From positions 3,123,194 to 3,187,193 of the forward strand of contig NZ_KB913013.1 of NCBI RefSeq assembly GCF_000383955.1: 64,000 nt of DNA. Reading direction: 5' to 3'. This DNA is from Rudanella lutea DSM 19387 (GTDB lineage: Bacteria > Bacteroidota > Bacteroidia > Cytophagales > Spirosomataceae). Positions 1 to 15,180 of this stretch are shown here, piece by piece; within the stretch, counting starts at the first letter, position 1; each line of letters begins with the position of its first letter. Under the pieces are notes generated by a model. That model was not told where the DNA came from. It was given only the letters and a program-made list of their open reading frames with translations, and did not search any database. Both the position numbers and the translations under genes were made by a program.

Positions 1-2073
1 CTTGTAGCGACCCACGCGGTCAGGGTCTTCGAGCAGTAACTCTTTCACAATTACAATGCTTTGCGTAAACGTATTGGCCGTTTCGTTGAAGAACGTCATC
101 GCCTTTACCACGTCGAAGTCCGACACGGGCGCGTCGGAAATGAGTGGGTAAAATGAAGCATAGTTGCGGGTTTTATTGGCCGACACAATAGCCATGATGA
201 TAGAGAGCTTCAGCGAGCTAACGAGTGAGGTATTCAGGTTGCTCACCTCGCGCCCATCGGCATTCAGGATAGCCGGTCGGTAACCGCCATCGGTGCCGGT
301 TTCCACAAACCGGATGGTGCCGTAGAAAGCTCCCGTGGGCGCGTTGATGTTGCGGTAGTGTTCATTAGCCGCGTCTTCGAGTTGCCGCACCAACTCGCGG
401 TACTTGGTATCTTTGACGCGCTTGGCCAACTCGGCCATGTCGAACAACATCTCTTTCTTCTGAATCAGATAGGGCGGTACCTGCCCCTGCGAGAGCACGT
501 TCAGCCGGTCGTTAATTTGTTTCTGCCGATTTTCTTTCTGCTCTTTTTGCGTCCGGTACTTATCCAGATCACGGCCAAACTTTGTTATATCAGCAATAGC
601 TCCATCCATCGAGTTCATGATGTCACGTGCGTTGGTGATGCCGCTCGTTTGCTCCTGCTCCTGAAGCTCGCGCATCCGGGCTTCCAGTTCCAGTTTGGTA
701 GCCCCTACCTGTTCCTGCTTCATTTGTCCGTCGTGCATCGACTGCTGCACCCGGTAGTTGATGCTTTCGATACTGCTCGCCATACCCAGCCCGTTTTGCA
801 TCAATTGCTTAAAAAACGACTTCAGATTCGTTCGGGGGAGTTCGGGTTGACTAATTTCCGGTTCGGGCAAGAGTAAACTTCGGATGGCTTCGTAGGCATC
901 ACTGCCTTCGGGGGCCGGTCGGTCGCAAACCTTACAGTGTTCGTCGGCAAGCATTTGCCGGACATACATCGGCTCCGGCACGTTGTCGGGCAGCCGAATC
1001 TGTAGTTTCTCACCCAATTTTTTGTCTAAGTTGGCAATAGCTTTGCGTGTAGCCACGGCCACGTCGTAGGCTTCGTGTTTTTCTTCAAATTTTCGGAGCA
1101 GGAACGTGGTATCCAGCAGCACCCAATTGTCGGTGAAGAGCTTGCGGCCCAGGGTTTCGTTGAACGTATCGGCTTCTTTTACGGCGTTTTCATAAGCCCG
1201 GCGGGCCTGATCGCGGGTTTGGGTGTACTCGTTAATTTTCTGGGCAAACTCGATACTTGCCAACAGCCCGTCTTTCTTTTCTTTGGCAAATTGCTCATTC
1301 TGCAGAGCCGAGGTAATCTGCCCCTCTAATTGGGCAATTTCCCGTTCAAGCAACCGGTATTCAGTTTGCAGTTTCTCAATTTCCTCCTGCCCTTTCTGTG
1401 ATTTTTTTAGTTCCAGATCAAATGCGTTCTTAGCCGTTTCGTAGGCCTTTTGTGTCGCCTGAATGTATCGATCCCAACGGTCAATGTCCGAGAGCTTTTT
1501 GATCACATTCCGGAGCGAGGTCGTGTTTGACGTATCGATCAGGTTATTGATTCCGCGTTCGCCCTGAAACCATACGTAGGGCCGCACATCGACCGGAATC
1601 AGCCATTCCAGCACCTCTTCATATCGGCTCGGCGGGATAGGTTTGAACGAAATGATGTCGTATTCGAATAGCTGAAACTCGCTTTTGGCAGGTTCAACCC
1701 ACTGCTTGGTGCTGGTTCGGCGGATGGTATAGGTTCTAATTAACTGATAAGCTTTGGGGGCGTTGTTGCGGACAGCTTCCACTTCAATGCAAACTTTTGC
1801 TTCAACCGACTCGCCAACAGCACACTGCTCTTTGGCTTTTTCGGACACTAACTCACCTTTAACCACGCTTGTAGGCCTAAGCTTACTTAGGGTTGCGGTG
1901 GTAGCGTTATCCGTAATGCCATCGCCAAACACCCACTGAAAGGCGTCGTAGAGCTTTGATTTTCCGTAGCCGTTGGCCCCAAGCACCATATTCAGCCCTT
2001 CCGTAAACAGGAACTCATTATCAGTGCCGTAGTAGCAAAGGAAATTCTGGATGGTTATTTTTTTGATAAGCAT
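1..2073 (-). CDS. SMC/DndD-like AAA ATPase with zinc-hook motif (3' end cut by window edge)
   Basis: The minus-strand frame is open from the ATG at 2073 to the window start (691 codons, C-terminus missing). It begins MLIKKITIQNFLCYYG, followed by a Walker A GANGYGKSKL at about residues 33-42. A long charged coiled-coil-like middle is interrupted by a CxxC hook (CKVCDRP, about residue 355), and near the visible end there is a Walker B-like segment LISDAPVSDFD. This is the layout of Rad50/SbcC and DndD-type ABC ATPases, which bind DNA and dimerise through ATP heads and a zinc hook. It starts 2 nt after the stop of the 77-residue gene, so the three genes are almost certainly co-transcribed. Assignment to the ATPase superfamily is firm. 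The DndD comparison is from memory, and the role (defence or repair) is inferred. Confidence 0.85.
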   Translation of the reverse strand, partial: MLIKKITIQNFLCYYGTDNEFLFTEGLNMVLGANGYGKSKLYDAFQWVFGDGITDNATTATLSKLRPTSVVKGELVSEKAKEQCAVGESVEAKVCIEVEAVRNNAPKAYQLIRTYTIRRTSTKQWVEPAKSEFQLFEYDIISFKPIPPSRYEEVLEWLIPVDVRPYVWFQGERGINNLIDTSNTTSLRNVIKKLSDIDRWDRYIQATQKAYETAKNAFDLELKKSQKGQEEIEKLQTEYRLLEREIAQLEGQITSALQNEQFAKEKKDGLLASIEFAQKINEYTQTRDQARRAYENAVKEADTFNETLGRKLFTDNWVLLDTTFLLRKFEEKHEAYDVAVATRKAIANLDKKLGEKLQIRLPDNVPEPMYVRQMLADEHCKVCDRPAPEGSDAYEAIRSLLLPEPEISQPELPRTNLKSFFKQLMQNGLGMASSIESINYRVQQSMHDGQMKQEQVGATKLELEARMRELQEQEQTSGITNARDIMNSMDGAIADITKFGRDLDKYRTQKEQKENRQKQINDRLNVLSQGQVPPYLIQKKEMLFDMAELAKRVKDTKYRELVRQLEDAANEHYRNINAPTGAFYGTIRFVETGTDGGYRPAILNADGREVSNLNTSLVSSLKLSIIMAIVSANKTRNYASFYPLISDAPVSDFDVVKAMTFFNETANTFTQSIVIVKELLLEDPDRVGRYK

Positions 2074-2075
2074 GA

Positions 2076-2309
2076 CTAACGGAGGGCGTTTTCGAGGGTT
2101 CTGTTCATGGTAGCCGCAGCCACATTAATGGTTATGGATTTGTCTTCAACGTCTTGCACAATCCGTTTAATGAGGTCAACCAGTATTTTAGCTTCGGCGT
2201 TTGGTTGTGACTGCAAGGTCATCCGGTTTACGTCGTCGGGCGTCAGGCTGTATTTTTGCTGAATCTGCGGGTCTTGCAGAAACGCTTTTACAATCTCGAT
2301 TTGTGTCAT
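2076..2309 (-). CDS. Small hypothetical protein (77 aa) between helicase and ATPase
   Basis: A 77-residue acidic, probably helical protein starting MTQIEIVKAFLQ. I chose the ATG at 2309 because it lies 6 nt beyond the helicase stop (2315); a longer frame to 2369 would overlap the helicase. It ends 2 nt before the ATPase start at 2073, so it is translationally embedded in the operon. I do not recognise a family. It does not look like DndE, the small partner of DndD. Its position suggests an accessory or bridging subunit for the ATPase/helicase pair, which is inference. Confidence 0.75.
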   Translation of the reverse strand: MTQIEIVKAFLQDPQIQQKYSLTPDDVNRMTLQSQPNAEAKILVDLIKRIVQDVEDKSITINVAAATMNRTLENALR

Positions 2310-2314
2310 GGTGT

Positions 2315-4537
2315 TTAGGCACTGAGTTCTTTGTGAATGGTATCTAAGTTGAGTCCATAGCTGTTGCATACTTCGCGAAACACCTCGGTGGCTTCGTATT
2401 TATTTTGGGCCATAAAGGCAAAATGTACAACCCGTTCGAGCTCTTTCTGCACCAAACGTTGCTCTAACTGGAAGGTAAAGCTATTGGGATCGGTCCGCGG
2501 AATCACCACCATGTCGTAGATGTAGGCGAAACTTTTGGCCGGGTGTTGCCGCAAAATGCGCCCCCGCCGTTGGATAAACTGTCGGGGATTCCCGGTGCTT
2601 GAGCAGAAAATGGCCTGCTCCGTGCGCGGAATATCAACGCCCTCGTCCAGGCACTTCATTGACAGCAGCGCGTTGATCTGCCCCTGTTCAAACTGCTTCA
2701 GCGTTAAATCCTTATCGGCCGAGTCGCTTGTGTATTGTGTGAGGGTGGTAGTGGGCGACACGCGCCGGATAATATTGGCGTAGAAATCAATGATTCGGTT
2801 TTCGTCGCTCAATTCGGCAAAAGCTTCTTCGTCTATCTCGCTGTCAGCATAGTAGCCTTCGGGGGCATACACGAGCGTATAATCGATGCGGCCGTGCCGG
2901 GTCATAATGTCAGACAGAATTTTCTCGAAGGTAGTCAGCTTGTTCTGCGCTTTGTGAATAATGCGTTTGCGTTGCATCAGCAGCATCTCCACCGATGCCG
3001 ACGCTTTTTCATCCCCTTTGGCGCGGGCATACAGCTTGGCGAGCTTGGCAGAGATTTCGGCATAAGCCACCATCTCCTCCTGTGTCAGGCTAACAATTTT
3101 AGGGTAGTAATAGTAAGGGCAAAGAATCCCTTCGTCGATGGCCCGCTCCATCGGAAAACTATACGTATAAGGCTCTTTGTCAGCAAAAAACGCTTCCATC
3201 TTCTCCGAGCCTTCGGGGTCATAAATACGCTTGGGGGTGGCTGATAACCCGATTCGTTTTTGTAGATGGATTCCGTCGAGCAGTTTAGCCACCGATGGCG
3301 ACGCGATGTTATGCGCTTCATCGGCCACCAGTACGGTGGTTGTAGGCAGTCGCTTGAAGTACGTCTGAAACTGCGAATTTGTAAATGAGCGGTACGTAGC
3401 AATGATGACAAACGACGTAGCGACTCCGAAACTCAATTGCGTCGTAATACTTCCGAGTTGGGCGGGCCACTCCACCGATTTTCCAGAAACGGCAATAACC
3501 TTGCGGAAATTAAACCTTCGACATTCGCCCGTCCACTGTTCTACCAATACGGTGGTTGGCACCAGAATAACGACTTGATAGGTACCAGTTTTTGCCGATT
3601 CATTCAGCACGCAATTCAGCGAGGTAATGGTTTTGCCGGTGCCGGTTGCCATCGCAAAAATACCCTTGCAATCATTTTCCAGCCAGTTTTGATAGGCTTC
3701 CTGCTGATATAGGCGTGGGCCGCTCTCGTATGGAAATCGGGGCGATGCCAAGTAAGTTTCGATCTTCTGCAAAATGCGTTGTACAGCTTTTTGGTGGGTT
3801 TTATTTCGTACCTGTTTGGCCTGTTGAGCAATAAGTTGCTGCTCCGCAGTCAGCAACTCGTCGAGGTCTTTGCCGCCATAGTCGCGCAGAATGACGGCTT
3901 CAATATCGGCAAATGGAATGAGTTCGGCATGGTCAGCGGTGCCCCCAAATAAACGTTCATACTCGTCTTCATAGCTGCTAAAAACGGTAGGATTGGCTCC
4001 CCACGACGTGCGAATTTCCAGTTCTTCGAGGTTTTCTAACAACCCCGACGCCGTGAAGTTACACGAGCCACGAAATTTGACTTTATCCCGGCCATCGCCC
4101 AAAATACCTGATTTGTAGTGAGCGATGCCACGCCCATGTTTGGGTCGGATGGCGCGAATCTGTACGCGCTCGGTGGCAATGAGCCACGCCAAACACGAAA
4201 AGAAGTGATGCCCATAGCTATCAAGCGCTTGGCGGAGGCTCTGAAAGTCCTTAGTCGAGAATGCATTTGGGGCTATCCCGCCCGAAGTGCCAACTAAGAG
4301 GGCTTCCTTATCCGGTTGCGACAAAATGTGGTTAATTATTAGTCGAGCCCGCCCACCATTGCTGATAAATTTAGCAAACCCCAACGCTAACACCCGAATT
4401 GCCGACGAACTAAAATACCCTAACAACAGGTCTAGCCGGGTGCTTTCTACCAATGCTTCCATATAGAAGGTCAGCGGTTCGTGTTGGGTGCCGGTTCGGT
4501 ACTCTTCGGAGGGGGGAAAGGTAATGTCGGCGAGCAT
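2315..4537 (-). CDS. PLD-nuclease/superfamily 2 helicase fusion
   Basis: 740 residues. The N-terminal part (about 1-220) is a phospholipase D-type nuclease domain with HxK at H140/K142 and GSCNFT at about 157-162, a single HKD half-site as in dimeric PLD nucleases. The SF2 helicase follows: an LYQQEAYQNW entry motif near 277, Walker A ATGTGKT at about 297-303, DEAH at 406-409, SAT at 432-434, and motif VI QRRGRILRQ near the C-terminus. No DUF3427 tail is present, so it is shorter than the common PLD-helicase-DUF3427 proteins. It is the first gene of the minus-strand operon with the 77-residue protein and the hook ATPase. PLD-helicase fusions occur in anti-phage systems such as Mokosh type II, but the partner set here differs. 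Domains are clear; the defence role is inferred. Confidence 0.88.
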   Translation of the reverse strand: MLADITFPPSEEYRTGTQHEPLTFYMEALVESTRLDLLLGYFSSSAIRVLALGFAKFISNGGRARLIINHILSQPDKEALLVGTSGGIAPNAFSTKDFQSLRQALDSYGHHFFSCLAWLIATERVQIRAIRPKHGRGIAHYKSGILGDGRDKVKFRGSCNFTASGLLENLEELEIRTSWGANPTVFSSYEDEYERLFGGTADHAELIPFADIEAVILRDYGGKDLDELLTAEQQLIAQQAKQVRNKTHQKAVQRILQKIETYLASPRFPYESGPRLYQQEAYQNWLENDCKGIFAMATGTGKTITSLNCVLNESAKTGTYQVVILVPTTVLVEQWTGECRRFNFRKVIAVSGKSVEWPAQLGSITTQLSFGVATSFVIIATYRSFTNSQFQTYFKRLPTTTVLVADEAHNIASPSVAKLLDGIHLQKRIGLSATPKRIYDPEGSEKMEAFFADKEPYTYSFPMERAIDEGILCPYYYYPKIVSLTQEEMVAYAEISAKLAKLYARAKGDEKASASVEMLLMQRKRIIHKAQNKLTTFEKILSDIMTRHGRIDYTLVYAPEGYYADSEIDEEAFAELSDENRIIDFYANIIRRVSPTTTLTQYTSDSADKDLTLKQFEQGQINALLSMKCLDEGVDIPRTEQAIFCSSTGNPRQFIQRRGRILRQHPAKSFAYIYDMVVIPRTDPNSFTFQLEQRLVQKELERVVHFAFMAQNKYEATEVFREVCNSYGLNLDTIHKELSA

Positions 4538-4630
4538 ATCAACAAATTCACTAAAAGGTTGCGTAGATAGTGCACCAATCTAAGTAATCTTTTTGTAAAA
4601 ACTCACAACTTACGGCCCCCCAAAAAGCAA

Positions 4631-4664
4631 CGCGGCCCCCGCTCCGTACGGAGCGGGGGCCGCG
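4631..4664 (-). terminator. Perfect 34-bp palindrome, terminator of the S41 protease gene
   Basis: Two 17-nt arms (4631-4647 and 4648-4664) are exact reverse complements with no unpaired loop in the DNA. On the minus strand the hairpin is followed by a short T run (TTGCTTTTT). It lies just past the S41 protease stop (4683) and before the helicase start (4537), separating the core gene from the candidate defence operon. Confidence 0.75.
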
Positions 4665-4682
4665 TATAGATTCTACGATCCT

Positions 4683-10803: not shown

Positions 10804-12009
10804 TTACGACTCGCTCCGTTCGATACCCATTTCCAGCCCCCGCAACTCAGCCAGGCCGCGTAGCCGCCCAATGGCCGTGTAGCCGGGGTTTATTTTTTTG
10901 CTGGAGGTCAGATCGTCGAGCATCCGATGGCCATGATCGGGTCGGAATGGCATCCGCAAATCCTCCCGACCTTCGTCCTGTCGGCGTTTTTGCTCCTTCA
11001 GCAACGCCCGCATCACGCTGTACATATCCACATCGCCCGCCAGGTGATCGGCTTCGTGGAAACTCCGCATCAGTGAGGGGTCGTCGGCATCGCGCAGGGT
11101 GCTCCGCAGATGCACAAAATGAATCCGTGGCCCCAGCCGCTCTACCATACCAGGCAGGTCGTTGTCGGGCCGAACCCCATAGCTACCTGTGCAGAAACAC
11201 AGCCCATTGGCCGGCGAGTCCACTTCGCTCAGTAACTGTTTTGCGTCGGCTTCGGTGCTCACTACGCGGGGCAGACCCAGAATTGGGTACGGCGGATCGT
11301 CGGGGTGAATAGACAGACGCACCCCAGCCGACTCAGCTACCGGCGTAATTTCGCGTAGAAACGTATACAGGTTTTGCCGCAGTTCGGCATCGCCCGTGTG
11401 TTTGTACGTATCGAGAGCTGCCTGAAACTGTTCGAGCGTGTAGCTTTCTTCCGAACCGGGCAAACCCGCAATAATTGTCCGAGTCAGGCGCTGCACATCG
11501 GCCTCAGTGGCCCCGTCCAGCCAGGCTTTGGCTTCCTGCTTGCGCGCATCGCTGTATTCGGCTTCAGCACCGGGCCGTTTCAGAATATACAATTCAAAAG
11601 CCGCAAACTCGGTCGCATCGAACCGGAGCCCCGTTGAGCCATCGGGCATGGGATAATCCAGATTGGTGCGGGTCCAGTCGAGTACGGGCATAAAGTTGTA
11701 ACAAACCGTATCGATACCGCACTGAGCCAGATTCAGGATCGACTCTTTATAGTTTTCGATATGTTGGCGATATGCCCCCGTGCGTGTTTTGATTTCTTCA
11801 TGCACCGGAATACTCTCGACAACCGACCAGGTAAGCCCGGCCTCTTCGATGATCTTTTTCCGCTGCTGAATTTCAGCTACGGGCCATACTTGCCCATTCG
11901 GGATATGATGCAGGGCCGTTACGATTCCGGTGGCACCTGCCTGTCGGACGTGCGCCAGCGATACGGGGTCATTCGGACCGAACCATCGCCAGGTTTGTTC
12001 TAAAGCCAT
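10804..12009 (-). CDS. uxuA: Mannonate dehydratase
   Basis: A 401-residue TIM-barrel enzyme that dehydrates D-mannonate to 2-keto-3-deoxygluconate in hexuronate catabolism. Family hallmarks are the N-terminus [33 protein letters not shown], the [13 protein letters not shown] segment, and the C-terminal metal-site stretch [15 protein letters not shown]. It is full length for UxuA. No other uronate genes are adjacent. It lies just outside the left end of the mobile element, so before insertion it was next to the tRNA-Leu gene. Confidence 0.95.
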
Positions 12010-12126
12010 TCAGACTACTTTTTGGGGTATAAGACGAAGGAGCGGCCGGTTTACCGATGCCCGCAAAAAAAGGGGTACTTTCCGCCAAGGATGTAGCTTT
12101 TGGGCGCGATTTGAGCCCTTTTAACG

Positions 12127-12158
12127 CCAAAGAGCCGCTACAAGTAGCGGCTCTTTGG
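12127..12158 (-). terminator. Perfect 15-bp hairpin, probably the original tRNA-Leu terminator
   Basis: CCAAAGAGCCGCTAC (12127-12141) pairs perfectly with 12144-12158 across a 2-nt loop. On the minus strand it is followed by a short T-containing tract. It lies 11 nt outside the displaced tRNA 3' end at 12169-12191. The natural reading is that it terminated tRNA-Leu before the element was inserted. Confidence 0.6.
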
Positions 12159-12168
12159 GCAATTTTAG

Positions 12169-12191
12169 GTACCAGGAGCGGGAATCGAACC
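12169..12191. repeat. Attachment site, integrase side (displaced 3' end of tRNA-Leu)
   Basis: A 23-bp copy identical to 17504-17526. It carries the acceptor and part of the T-arm of tRNA-Leu but is followed by unrelated sequence, so it is not a tRNA gene but the left junction of the element. Confidence 0.9.
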
Positions 12192-12298
12192 TTTACCTTT
12201 TCGTACCGTCACCTATTCTTATTATTACTGATTATCAGCACTTTATAAAAGTCACTTGTCTACTTCAAAAGTAAATCAGAGTAGTTAAAAGTAAGATT

Positions 12299-12344
12299 TG
12301 TTTCGGTAATGTTTCGGTAATGTTTCGGTAAAATGTTTCGGTAA
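12299..12344 (+). repeat. Four TGTTTCGGTAA direct repeats (probable integrase arm sites)
   Basis: Copies at 12299-12309, 12310-12320, 12321-12331 and 12334-12344. The first three are in exact 11-bp phase, about one helical turn. They lie between the attachment site and the integrase ATG (12383). Two more copies sit at the other end of the element (17428-17449). Position at both ends suggests arm-type binding sites of the recombinase, and the left set could also regulate the integrase promoter. Confidence 0.75.
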
Positions 12345-12382
12345 ACTATTTTCGGGCAGGATAGTAAAACGAAACATAGAAA

Positions 12383-13618
12383 ATGAAGACCGATTCAGCA
12401 ATCAGCCGAAACGCTGTTAATGCTTTTACCTTCTCAATTGAGCTTAACCATAAGCCAAAAGCAAACGGTGACTATGGTTTATTTCTTCGGATAACGGAAA
12501 ACCGGAAGGTAAAGCGGATATACACCGGATTTGATGTACCCAAAAAGGATTGGAACCCCAAAAAGAAAGAAGTTCGTCGTACCTATCCGCTATACAGCCA
12601 GATAAACAAGCGGATAGAAGAACTGAAGGCACAAGCCATAACGGTAAAGGCAGAAGTTAAGGGAGCAACGACCAACGTAGTAGTAAGCCACCTGAAAGGC
12701 CAAAACACCTCTTTATTTTTTCCGTACGCTGATATTCAAGTCGGTAAAAGAACTTACAACACAGCCCGAAACCTTAAATCTGAAATCAAAAAATTTCGGG
12801 ATTGGATAGGTAATGAGCAGTTAACCTTTGCTGACATTACAACCCCTATACTTTACGACTATCACGATTGGCTGATACGTTCGCACGGCAATAACCTGAA
12901 TTCGGCTAACACCTCTTTAACGAAAATACGCACCGTCATAAGCAAGGCCACCGAAGAGGGACTTATAAAATGGCAGGATAACCCGTTTTTGGGCTTCAAA
13001 ATGACAGAAGCCAGACCCCAACGGGTAAGACTCACAGAAGAGGAATTACAAGCATTTTCAACCGTTGACCTACCCGAAGGTACGCTGATATGGCATACCC
13101 GTAATTACTGGCTATTCGCTTTCTATACGGCAGGGGTACGTTTTAGCGATGTGGCTTGCCTGAAGTGGAGCAACATTAACGGGGGTAGGCTATCGTACGT
13201 AATGCGTAAGACGCAACACGTTATTCAGCAAAGCCACACAATTCCCTTACCCAAACAGGCAGAAGCCATTTTAGACCACTACCGGAGCCCCGAAAGCAAG
13301 CCCGAAGACTATCTGTTTCCAATCCTCAGCACACAACGCGAATACAACACCGAAGACGACCTGTTAAAAGAAATTTCGCGCAAAAATGCGCTAATCAATA
13401 AGTACCTCAAGCTAATCTGCCAGAAGGCGGAAATAGCCAAAGACGTATCATTTCATTCGGCCAGGCACACCTTTGCCGACTTAGGCCGAAGGAAAATCAA
13501 AGACGTATACGCCATATCAAAGCTACTTCGGCACTCCAAAATCAATATTACCGAGAAGTACATAAAGGACTTTGATACTGAAGTTACCGATCAGGCTTTG
13601 AACACCCTATTCGGGTAG
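12383..13618 (+). CDS. Tyrosine recombinase (site-specific integrase)
   Basis: 411 residues. The N-terminus (FSIELNHKPKANGDYGLFLRITENRK) is the arm-DNA-binding fold usual in Bacteroidota integrases, followed by a SAM-like core-binding domain and the catalytic domain. The catalytic set is visible: Arg253 in AGVRFSDVACLKW, His358/Arg361 in HSARHTFADLG, His in LLRHSKINIT, and the nucleophile Tyr393 in EKYI. It catalyses integration and excision at the 23-bp attachment site in tRNA-Leu. It is next to the left attachment site, with four putative arm sites just upstream. Confidence 0.95.
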   Translation: MKTDSAISRNAVNAFTFSIELNHKPKANGDYGLFLRITENRKVKRIYTGFDVPKKDWNPKKKEVRRTYPLYSQINKRIEELKAQAITVKAEVKGATTNVVVSHLKGQNTSLFFPYADIQVGKRTYNTARNLKSEIKKFRDWIGNEQLTFADITTPILYDYHDWLIRSHGNNLNSANTSLTKIRTVISKATEEGLIKWQDNPFLGFKMTEARPQRVRLTEEELQAFSTVDLPEGTLIWHTRNYWLFAFYTAGVRFSDVACLKWSNINGGRLSYVMRKTQHVIQQSHTIPLPKQAEAILDHYRSPESKPEDYLFPILSTQREYNTEDDLLKEISRKNALINKYLKLICQKAEIAKDVSFHSARHTFADLGRRKIKDVYAISKLLRHSKINITEKYIKDFDTEVTDQALNTLFG

Positions 13619-13643
13619 TTTTTTATTGTAGTCCTTTTCGGGT

Positions 13644-14492
13644 ATGAATTCTTACCCTTCTTTAATTCAATCAATGGACAACTTAATTAACATTCTTCCT
13701 GAAAACTGGCTTGCTGAGTACCTTTTTCGAGTGTACCTAACAGAAGATGATTGGGAAAAATGGGGAAGAAAAGAGCTTAGTGAATATCAAGTTGAACAAG
13801 AGTTGTATAAAACTTGTGAAGACTTTCTTTCATACTACCAAGTTCCGACTGATTATCAAATCATGTCTAACATCTGCTACATCGTTGATTTTTTACAAAA
13901 CGAAGAATCGAAGATTATGGAAATCGGTGGGTATAATGTTTATGAATCACCTTCAACAAGTGAGTTAATCAAAGATATGGAAGCTATTAAATCGTTTATC
14001 AATTTGGTGATTGAACAAGACAAGGCTTATAAAGCAGCACATGAGAAATGGTCATCAATCCTACAAAACAGTGAAAGAGAAGAGGATGTACCACCTGCAC
14101 CTGATTTACCTTATTATTCCATAACTTTTAATTCTTACGGCAAGTCTCCTAAATCTGTTCACATTAAGGAATATGCTGCAACTTATATGCTCAACTTGAT
14201 ACGTGAATCTCCCAAAAGCCCGCATTTATATCAGACTAATATTTCAAAACACTCAAATGAAAAAGTTATAACGCGCTTTTTGAAAAACACAATTGTAGCT
14301 CTTGATAAGATATTAATACGCTTAGATTTTACGTTTCACACCAAGAAATTAAAGTATTGGTTCATTCAAGGTATTTTGCAGATGAGCAATGTCAATCTTG
14401 ATGAGGTTACAACAGATATAGATAAATACTTTAATCAATTAGAAAATAGAGCCCGCAAAGAAGGTCTTTTTAGTCAGGTCCCTAACCCTTAG
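13644..14492 (+). CDS. Hypothetical AT-rich cargo protein (282 aa)
   Basis: I do not recognise a family. The product is 282 residues, hydrophilic and rich in Lys, Glu, Ile, Tyr and Asn, with no signal peptide or membrane segment. It reads as a largely helical cytoplasmic protein with segments such as WLAEYLFRVYLTEDDWEKW and KYWFIQGILQM. Base composition is markedly more AT-rich than every neighbour, including the other genes of the element, so it was probably acquired separately. It begins 25 nt after the integrase stop and is followed by its own hairpin (14503-14541). That insulated position behind the integrase is where many satellites carry accessory or defence genes, but no function can be assigned. 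Confidence 0.75.
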   Translation: MNSYPSLIQSMDNLINILPENWLAEYLFRVYLTEDDWEKWGRKELSEYQVEQELYKTCEDFLSYYQVPTDYQIMSNICYIVDFLQNEESKIMEIGGYNVYESPSTSELIKDMEAIKSFINLVIEQDKAYKAAHEKWSSILQNSEREEDVPPAPDLPYYSITFNSYGKSPKSVHIKEYAATYMLNLIRESPKSPHLYQTNISKHSNEKVITRFLKNTIVALDKILIRLDFTFHTKKLKYWFIQGILQMSNVNLDEVTTDIDKYFNQLENRARKEGLFSQVPNP

Positions 14493-14502
14493 TCATAAAA
14501 GC

Positions 14503-14541
14503 AACTTCAGACCTATCCTTTTTTCGGGAATGTCTGAAGTT
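14503..14541 (+). terminator. Terminator-like hairpin after cargo gene
   Basis: AACTTCAGAC (14503-14512) pairs perfectly with GTCTGAAGTT (14532-14541), with a T-rich loop. It follows the stop at 14492 and isolates the integrase/cargo pair from the downstream genes. Confidence 0.5.
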
Positions 14542-14614
14542 TCTACGCTATTTCCCTCTAATGACCTTTGACTCGTTCAATGATTCTTTTTTTACAATCA
14601 AAACGAGTTAACAC

Positions 14615-14869
14615 ATGGCAAACAGCCGTAAAAAAGACCCGATTCAAGGAATCGCAATTGAAGCGCAACTTATCGAAGTTGTGTCATGCCCTACCGATCA
14701 GCTAAAGCTTAGAACCGCTTTACGTTCGTGGTTTATGTCGTTCCTCACCCAAACCGAAGACCACATAAATCATTCTTCGTTGGTTGAGAACATCTACTAC
14801 TACGAAGTTCTTCAAGAGTGGATTGATGCCACCGGATTAATCACGCAAAACCACACCGTAAACGATTAA
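14615..14869 (+). CDS. Small hypothetical protein (84 aa)
   Basis: An 84-residue soluble protein starting MANSRKKDPIQGIAIEAQLIEV, of unrecognised family. It ends 5 nt before the start of the helix-turn-helix gene, so the two are probably co-transcribed. Basic at the N-terminus and acidic later. Confidence 0.6.
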   Translation: MANSRKKDPIQGIAIEAQLIEVVSCPTDQLKLRTALRSWFMSFLTQTEDHINHSSLVENIYYYEVLQEWIDATGLITQNHTVND

Positions 14870-14874
14870 TCACG

Positions 14875-15180
14875 ATGGAAGCTAAACTGATAACCGTAGA
14901 GGATTATAAAGCCCTACAATGCGCTTTAACGCGCTTAGAAAGCAAGTTAGACAAACTGATACCGGAGCAATTGGATACGGTGACGTATACCCCCGAAGAG
15001 GTTTGTAAAATGCTTGATTGCAGCCCCAAAACGTTGCAGAACTACCGGGACAAACAACTAATTGACTTTAGCCAGGTTGGACCAAAGATTTGGTTCACGG
15101 CACAAGATGTGCAAGCGTTTCTGAATCGTAACAGGATTCAGGCGAAAGGATTGCTTCGGAAAAATCAGCCCAACGCCTAA
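14875..15180 (+). CDS. Helix-turn-helix (excisionase-type) DNA-binding protein
   Basis: 101 residues with an N-terminal helix (ALTRLESKLDKLI) and a MerR/excisionase-like helix-turn-helix from about residue 40: TYTPEEVCKMLDCSPKTLQNYRD, then VGPKIWFTAQDVQAFL. This HTH_17 type is common on Bacteroidota mobile elements, where it acts as an excision factor or replication/transcription regulator. Lying between the integrase and the Rep gene, it could set integration direction or copy number. Specific role inferred. Confidence 0.8.
   Translation: MEAKLITVEDYKALQCALTRLESKLDKLIPEQLDTVTYTPEEVCKMLDCSPKTLQNYRDKQLIDFSQVGPKIWFTAQDVQAFLNRNRIQAKGLLRKNQPNA

Follow-up and report, generated by a model that had tools for sequence, protein, structure and literature searches.

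We analyzed a window of 64,000 nucleotides from Rudanella lutea DSM 19387, whose first three genes are, judged by their sequences, pbeA, pbeB and pbeC of PbeABCD, a defence system linked to phosphorothioate (PT) marks. The locus is very probably a decaying PbeABCD copy of a Bacteroidota subfamily that normally adjoins SspABCD. PbeABCD was described in 2019 in the archaeon Haloterrigena jeotgali A29, where it consists of a PLD-Res-helicase, a 66-aa protein, an ATPase and a 152-aa protein, and where all four pbe genes as well as the PT mark are needed for virus protection (Xiong 2019, PMC6459918). According to the main text of Rakesh 2024 (PMC10853773), PbeA is an HKD DNase-SF2 helicase and PbeC a zinc-hook ABC ATPase; the small PbeB is a regulator, and PbeD is a cognate of DndE.

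In window coordinates all three genes lie on the minus strand. pbeA (2315..4537) encodes a protein of 740 aa with a PLD/HKD nuclease domain fused to an SF2 helicase, and its catalytic motifs are all intact: HxK and GSCNFT in the nuclease, GTGKT, DEAH and QRRGR in the helicase. The small, fast-evolving product of pbeB (2076..2309) has 77 aa. pbeC (1..2073) encodes a zinc-hook (CxxC) ABC ATPase with a Walker A motif and the hook sequence CKVC, and like the motifs of pbeA these are conserved in relatives. The window contains the first 691 of the 739 aa of PbeC; the remaining 48 codons and the stop are found past position 1, the gene ending about 145 bp beyond it. pbeA and pbeB are separated by 5 nt, given a pbeB start at 2309 (the alternative in-frame start at 2369 would yield a longer gene overlapping pbeA), and pbeB and pbeC by 2 nt. 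An initial annotation had proposed a defence operon of three tightly packed genes; the genes, gaps and motifs were borne out and the order of the triplet is kept in relatives, but a three-gene system is not what we found, as relatives carry pbeD in addition. The lower GC content it ascribed to these genes compared with adjacent core genes holds only mildly, with 0.47-0.51 for the three genes versus 0.52-0.59 in the nearest flanking kilobases. Further into the window, GC content drops to 0.38-0.42 at positions 12001-15000, a clear contrast to the remainder of the first 20 kb that may mark another acquired segment.

Upstream of pbeA a terminator-like hairpin is found on the minus strand (4630..4665), with a stem of 16 pairs, 14 of them GC, followed by a T run. 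The length of the stem is notable, while terminator-like sites as such are not claimed to be rare in the region (2 found vs 3.5 expected from shuffles). The hairpin separates pbeA from the S41-peptidase gene upstream of it, so that it is probably the upstream boundary and pbeA probably begins its own transcription unit.

The assignment to PbeABCD is carried by profile matches and by gene order. The pbeA product matched the PADLOC PbeA model PDLC02706 with 992 bits (E 4.8e-299, residues 12-727), and the NCBIfam model TIGR04095 ('DNA phosphorothioation system restriction enzyme') with 418.7 bits at a cut-off of 600. For the pbeC product the best PADLOC family was PbeC (80.5 bits, E 2.9e-23), with LmuB lower at 69.7 bits; PbeC scores in PADLOC are modest for this clade, which its PbeB and PbeD models do not cover well. 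Searches with profile libraries, PADLOC and NCBIfam among them, gave no convincing match for the pbeB product, which shares 49-53% identity with its small counterparts in Fibrella and Dyadobacter; its place and size agree with the known pbeB, and an ORF of 67-99 aa is present there in all relatives checked. pbeC shares 64-70% identity with its Dyadobacter and Fibrella counterparts. Looking for the triplet order across genomes had been suggested in the initial annotation, and indeed the A-B-C order and spacing are the same in relatives, and in those compared pbeC is immediately followed by a fourth gene. The same annotation held that the set matches no known system and may be an undescribed defence or DNA-processing module. 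That none of the three proteins passes an NCBIfam equivalog cut-off and that pbeB is without a convincing match would suit this idea, yet the score of PbeA, the ranking of PbeC and the conserved four-gene order make it highly improbable. The PADLOC search matched the locus directly to a system that already has a name, the very outcome that the annotation had considered fatal to its proposal, which is thereby refuted.

Lamassu and Wadjet were considered as well and rejected, since PbeC models score above LmuB, the SMC-like ATPase of Lamassu, and no LmuA-like gene is among the three. Mokosh II contains a PLD-helicase. Against both Lamassu and Mokosh, the PbeA and PbeC models score higher at this locus and the order of the four genes agrees with Pbe.

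Reading beyond position 1, likewise suggested initially, disclosed the end of pbeC, decayed toxin-antitoxin-like DNA and a broken remnant of pbeD. In relatives a gene of 142-176 aa directly after pbeC is pbeD, its product matching TIGR04062 in 23 of 24 cases. Pfam gave no DndE match for the PbeD of relatives, and the DndE Pfam model PF08870 matched neither in this genome nor in the controls, which is why this search is not used as evidence. When an AlphaFold model of a relative's PbeD (pLDDT 86.6) was compared with DndE crystal structures, Z scores of 8.9/8.8 over 97-103 residues were obtained, the next best being 3.0; Foldseek alone ranked DndE high with an E-value that is not significant. 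PbeD of intact relatives is thus predicted to have the DndE fold. In this genome pbeD consists of two frame-shifted pieces located downstream, outside the window, and corresponding to codons 1-35 and 25-69 of 171; beyond that remnant no pbeD was found elsewhere in the genome. About 971 bp of unrelated, decayed toxin-antitoxin-like sequence lies between pbeC and the remnant, and we found no convincing target-site duplication or repeats around this insertion. It includes, at L002:14380-15012 on the minus strand, the decayed toxin-like gene of a PIN-domain protein, interrupted by a stop, together with a 69-aa antitoxin-like ORF. At the frame shift the alignment to Fibrella has a gap. Taken alone, the shift could be a sequencing error, but such an error would not account for the loss of 100 codons or for the 971 bp that separate the pieces from pbeC. 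The homology to pbeD ends next to the 3' terminus of a methyltransferase-HIT gene encoded on the opposite strand. This gene belongs to a tightly packed plus-strand trio outside the window, encoding an HNH_4 protein, a KptA/Tpt1 RNA 2'-phosphotransferase and the methyltransferase-HIT fusion (L002:11655-14156, genome C1:3119355-3121856), whose 3' end abuts the truncated pbeD.

The genome was searched for SspD, SspB (DUF4007) and DndC, and none of the three gave a match. In positive controls the searches for SspD, DUF4007 and DndC succeeded in 20, 20 and 6 of 26 genomes, one SspD match (G184) being a weak cross-match to the DndC gene of that genome and one DUF4007 match (G746) being weak and partial. 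PbeA, PbeB and PbeC are present at this locus, an intact PbeD and the PT genes searched for were not found in the genome, and because pbeD is not intact we file the locus, on its gene content, as a decayed relative of PbeABCD and not as a working member. With a broken pbeD and with SspB, SspD and DndC not found, the copy lacks detectable PT machinery and is probably inactive, suggesting that it no longer protects its host.

We also compared the evolutionary rate of the remaining genes by a relative-rate count with Dyadobacter as outgroup; synonymous sites are saturated, so no dN/dS ratio is given. pbeC has accumulated 99 unique amino-acid changes here versus 35 in Fibrella (p 3e-8), whereas the numbers for pbeA are 60 and 49 (p 0.34). 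The excess in pbeC falls within residues 1-600, the C-terminal ATPase part being well kept. Such an acceleration is consistent with relaxed constraint on a partner of the lost PbeD, and adaptation or recombination may also account for it. In G482, a sister genome from the same genus with 89-91% DNA identity in the region, 905 bp lie between the conserved flanks compared with 8.7 kb here, which marks the locus as a variable island. A RAYT-like gene (Y1_Tnp, weak match) is located in that genome at L065:12409-12948, where the pbe island sits here.

Open reading frames and intact catalytic motifs of pbeA, pbeB and pbeC are a counter-point to decay and allow for a recent loss or for a function without PbeD. 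It is thus conceivable that pbeABC is a working slimmed-down system without pbeD that uses methylation as self mark, or none. pbeA without significant acceleration would agree with this, as would the observation that 320 of 553 pbeAC loci are without dndCD within 10 kb, 155 of these being near methyltransferases (Xiong 2019, PMC6459918). However, the sampled relatives for which enough flanking sequence was available carry pbeD, the archaeal system lost its protection when pbeD was deleted (PMC6459918), and pbeC is accelerated here. The sole adjoining methyltransferase, moreover, is the one fused to a HIT domain, with folds resembling small-molecule or RNA methyltransferases and not a DNA methylase family. 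We regard a slimmed-down system as improbable and a decaying copy as the far better reading.

The relatives of the locus show a consistent neighborhood. A search of 390 Cytophagales genomes yielded PbeA in 19, and one of 395 Bacteroidota genomes yielded PbeC in 8; both counts include the present genome. All 25 Bacteroidota relatives sampled carry a PT-modification gene 1.9-8.7 kb from PbeA/PbeC (loci L012, L013 and L014, apparently the same contigs as L039, L041 and L038, were counted once). For 19 of them the gene is SspD (1.9-7.5 kb away), and these genomes also have SspB, one of them on a different contig; for the other 6 it is DndC (2.5-8.7 kb away). A full SspD and an over-cut-off DndC never occur together in one relative. 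Across the Cytophagales, 15 genomes have both PbeA and SspB, 26 SspB only, 4 PbeA only and 345 neither (Fisher p 4e-13, kinship ignored). The neighboring SspA, SspB, SspC and SspD reached 504, 330.6, 1330.9 and 310.4 bits in PADLOC, the SspA assignment being shared with DndA, since the Dyadobacter protein also scores 500 bits to DndA and the two are not told apart. An sspA-like gene is frequently the immediate neighbor of pbeA, the distance between them being -17 to +79 nt in several loci. These arrangements suggest that in Bacteroidota PbeABCD usually adjoins Ssp, unlike the Dnd pairing of the first description.

In a PbeA tree, 20 Ssp-linked Bacteroidota rows and the copy studied here form one group (89/92 support), within which this copy is placed beside Fibrella and Dyadobacter (100/99). 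On a Rhizobium plasmid pbeB-C-D-A lies beside genes for a PAPS reductase, an ATPase, a DUF4007 protein and a cysteine desulfurase; on alphaproteobacterial and Chloroflexota plasmids dnd genes are found beside pbe instead. The Ssp-linked Rhizobium PbeA is located elsewhere on the tree, on a long branch, implying at least two changes of partner, although its placement is unsure. Among the best 25 of 141 PADLOC families for 67 neighboring genes, the SspE and SspFGH models were absent. DUF262 (GmrSD_N) genes of about 350-380 aa occur beside sspD at L038:7874-9007 and at five other loci, and the Fibrella one was called NsnA-like by PADLOC, not SspE. Genes of the DndB family adjoin SspBCD-PbeABCD loci in L040, L041, L042, L046 and L060. 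DndB is usually listed with Dnd systems.

Gene linkage suggests that PbeABCD acts together with SspABCD in these relatives. According to this model SspABCD (or DndCDEA) would place phosphorothioates into host DNA; PbeC, the zinc-hook ABC ATPase, and PbeD with its DndE fold would scan DNA; PbeA would be the nuclease-helicase effector and PbeB a small regulator or bridge. DNA lacking the self mark would be attacked, or its replication blocked. The proximity of PbeABCD and SspBCD might instead reflect defence islands shared without functional pairing, as further defence-like genes are present in these loci and 26 of the 41 SspB-bearing Cytophagales genomes are without PbeA. Shared islands do not readily explain why SspD or DndC is found within 9 kb in every relative sampled, why the full SspD and over-cut-off DndC are never found together, why sspA so often abuts pbeA, and why the Ssp-Pbe arrangement recurs on the Rhizobium plasmid. 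We consider mere co-residence unlikely and lean towards SspABCD-PbeABCD being a PT-based defence pair of its own that has yet to be described, with PbeABCD as the effector that would read SspABCD marks.

Compared with H. jeotgali A29, PbeA, PbeB and PbeC appear in the same order here, and pbeD follows in relatives; PbeABCD of the archaeon is paired with DndCDEA, whereas this clade is paired with SspBCD and in the copy under study pbeD is broken and PT genes were not found. The CxC ABC-ATPase/DndE systems of PMC10853773 share, in the main text of that paper, the Zn-hook ABC ATPase, the HKD-SF2 effector, the small protein and the DndE cognate. They are named for a CxC hook, whereas the hook reads CxxC in the 25 sequences here, and the neighbors given in that main text are tandem DndDE or cytosine methylases, an Ssp pairing being unmentioned there. 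SspABCD-SspE and SspABCD-SspFGH (Wang 2021, PMC8092258) use the same PT-modification genes that adjoin PbeABCD in 19 relatives, the effector in the relatives being PbeABCD. The accessible part of PMC7464106 counts strains with either kind of PT genes plus pbeA-D and does not single out the pairing. In the accessible main-text literature on Ssp and Pbe, supplements and most subscription papers aside, we found no description of PbeABCD as an SspABCD effector.

What remains at the locus is the relic of a system already known, while its relatives supply a testable answer to a gap in the literature. Of 2,678 sspBCD loci, 2,211 have neither sspE nor sspFGH (PMC8092258). If the Ssp-Pbe pairing is true, it could explain part of these effector-less sspBCD loci as well as part of the pbeAC loci without dndCD, and PbeABCD would be one missing restriction partner for sspBCD loci lacking sspE and sspFGH. 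The broken copy offers a natural case for the fate of pbeC once pbeD is lost. If PbeABCD reads both Ssp and Dnd marks, PT effectors would be interchangeable between double-strand and single-strand marking machineries.
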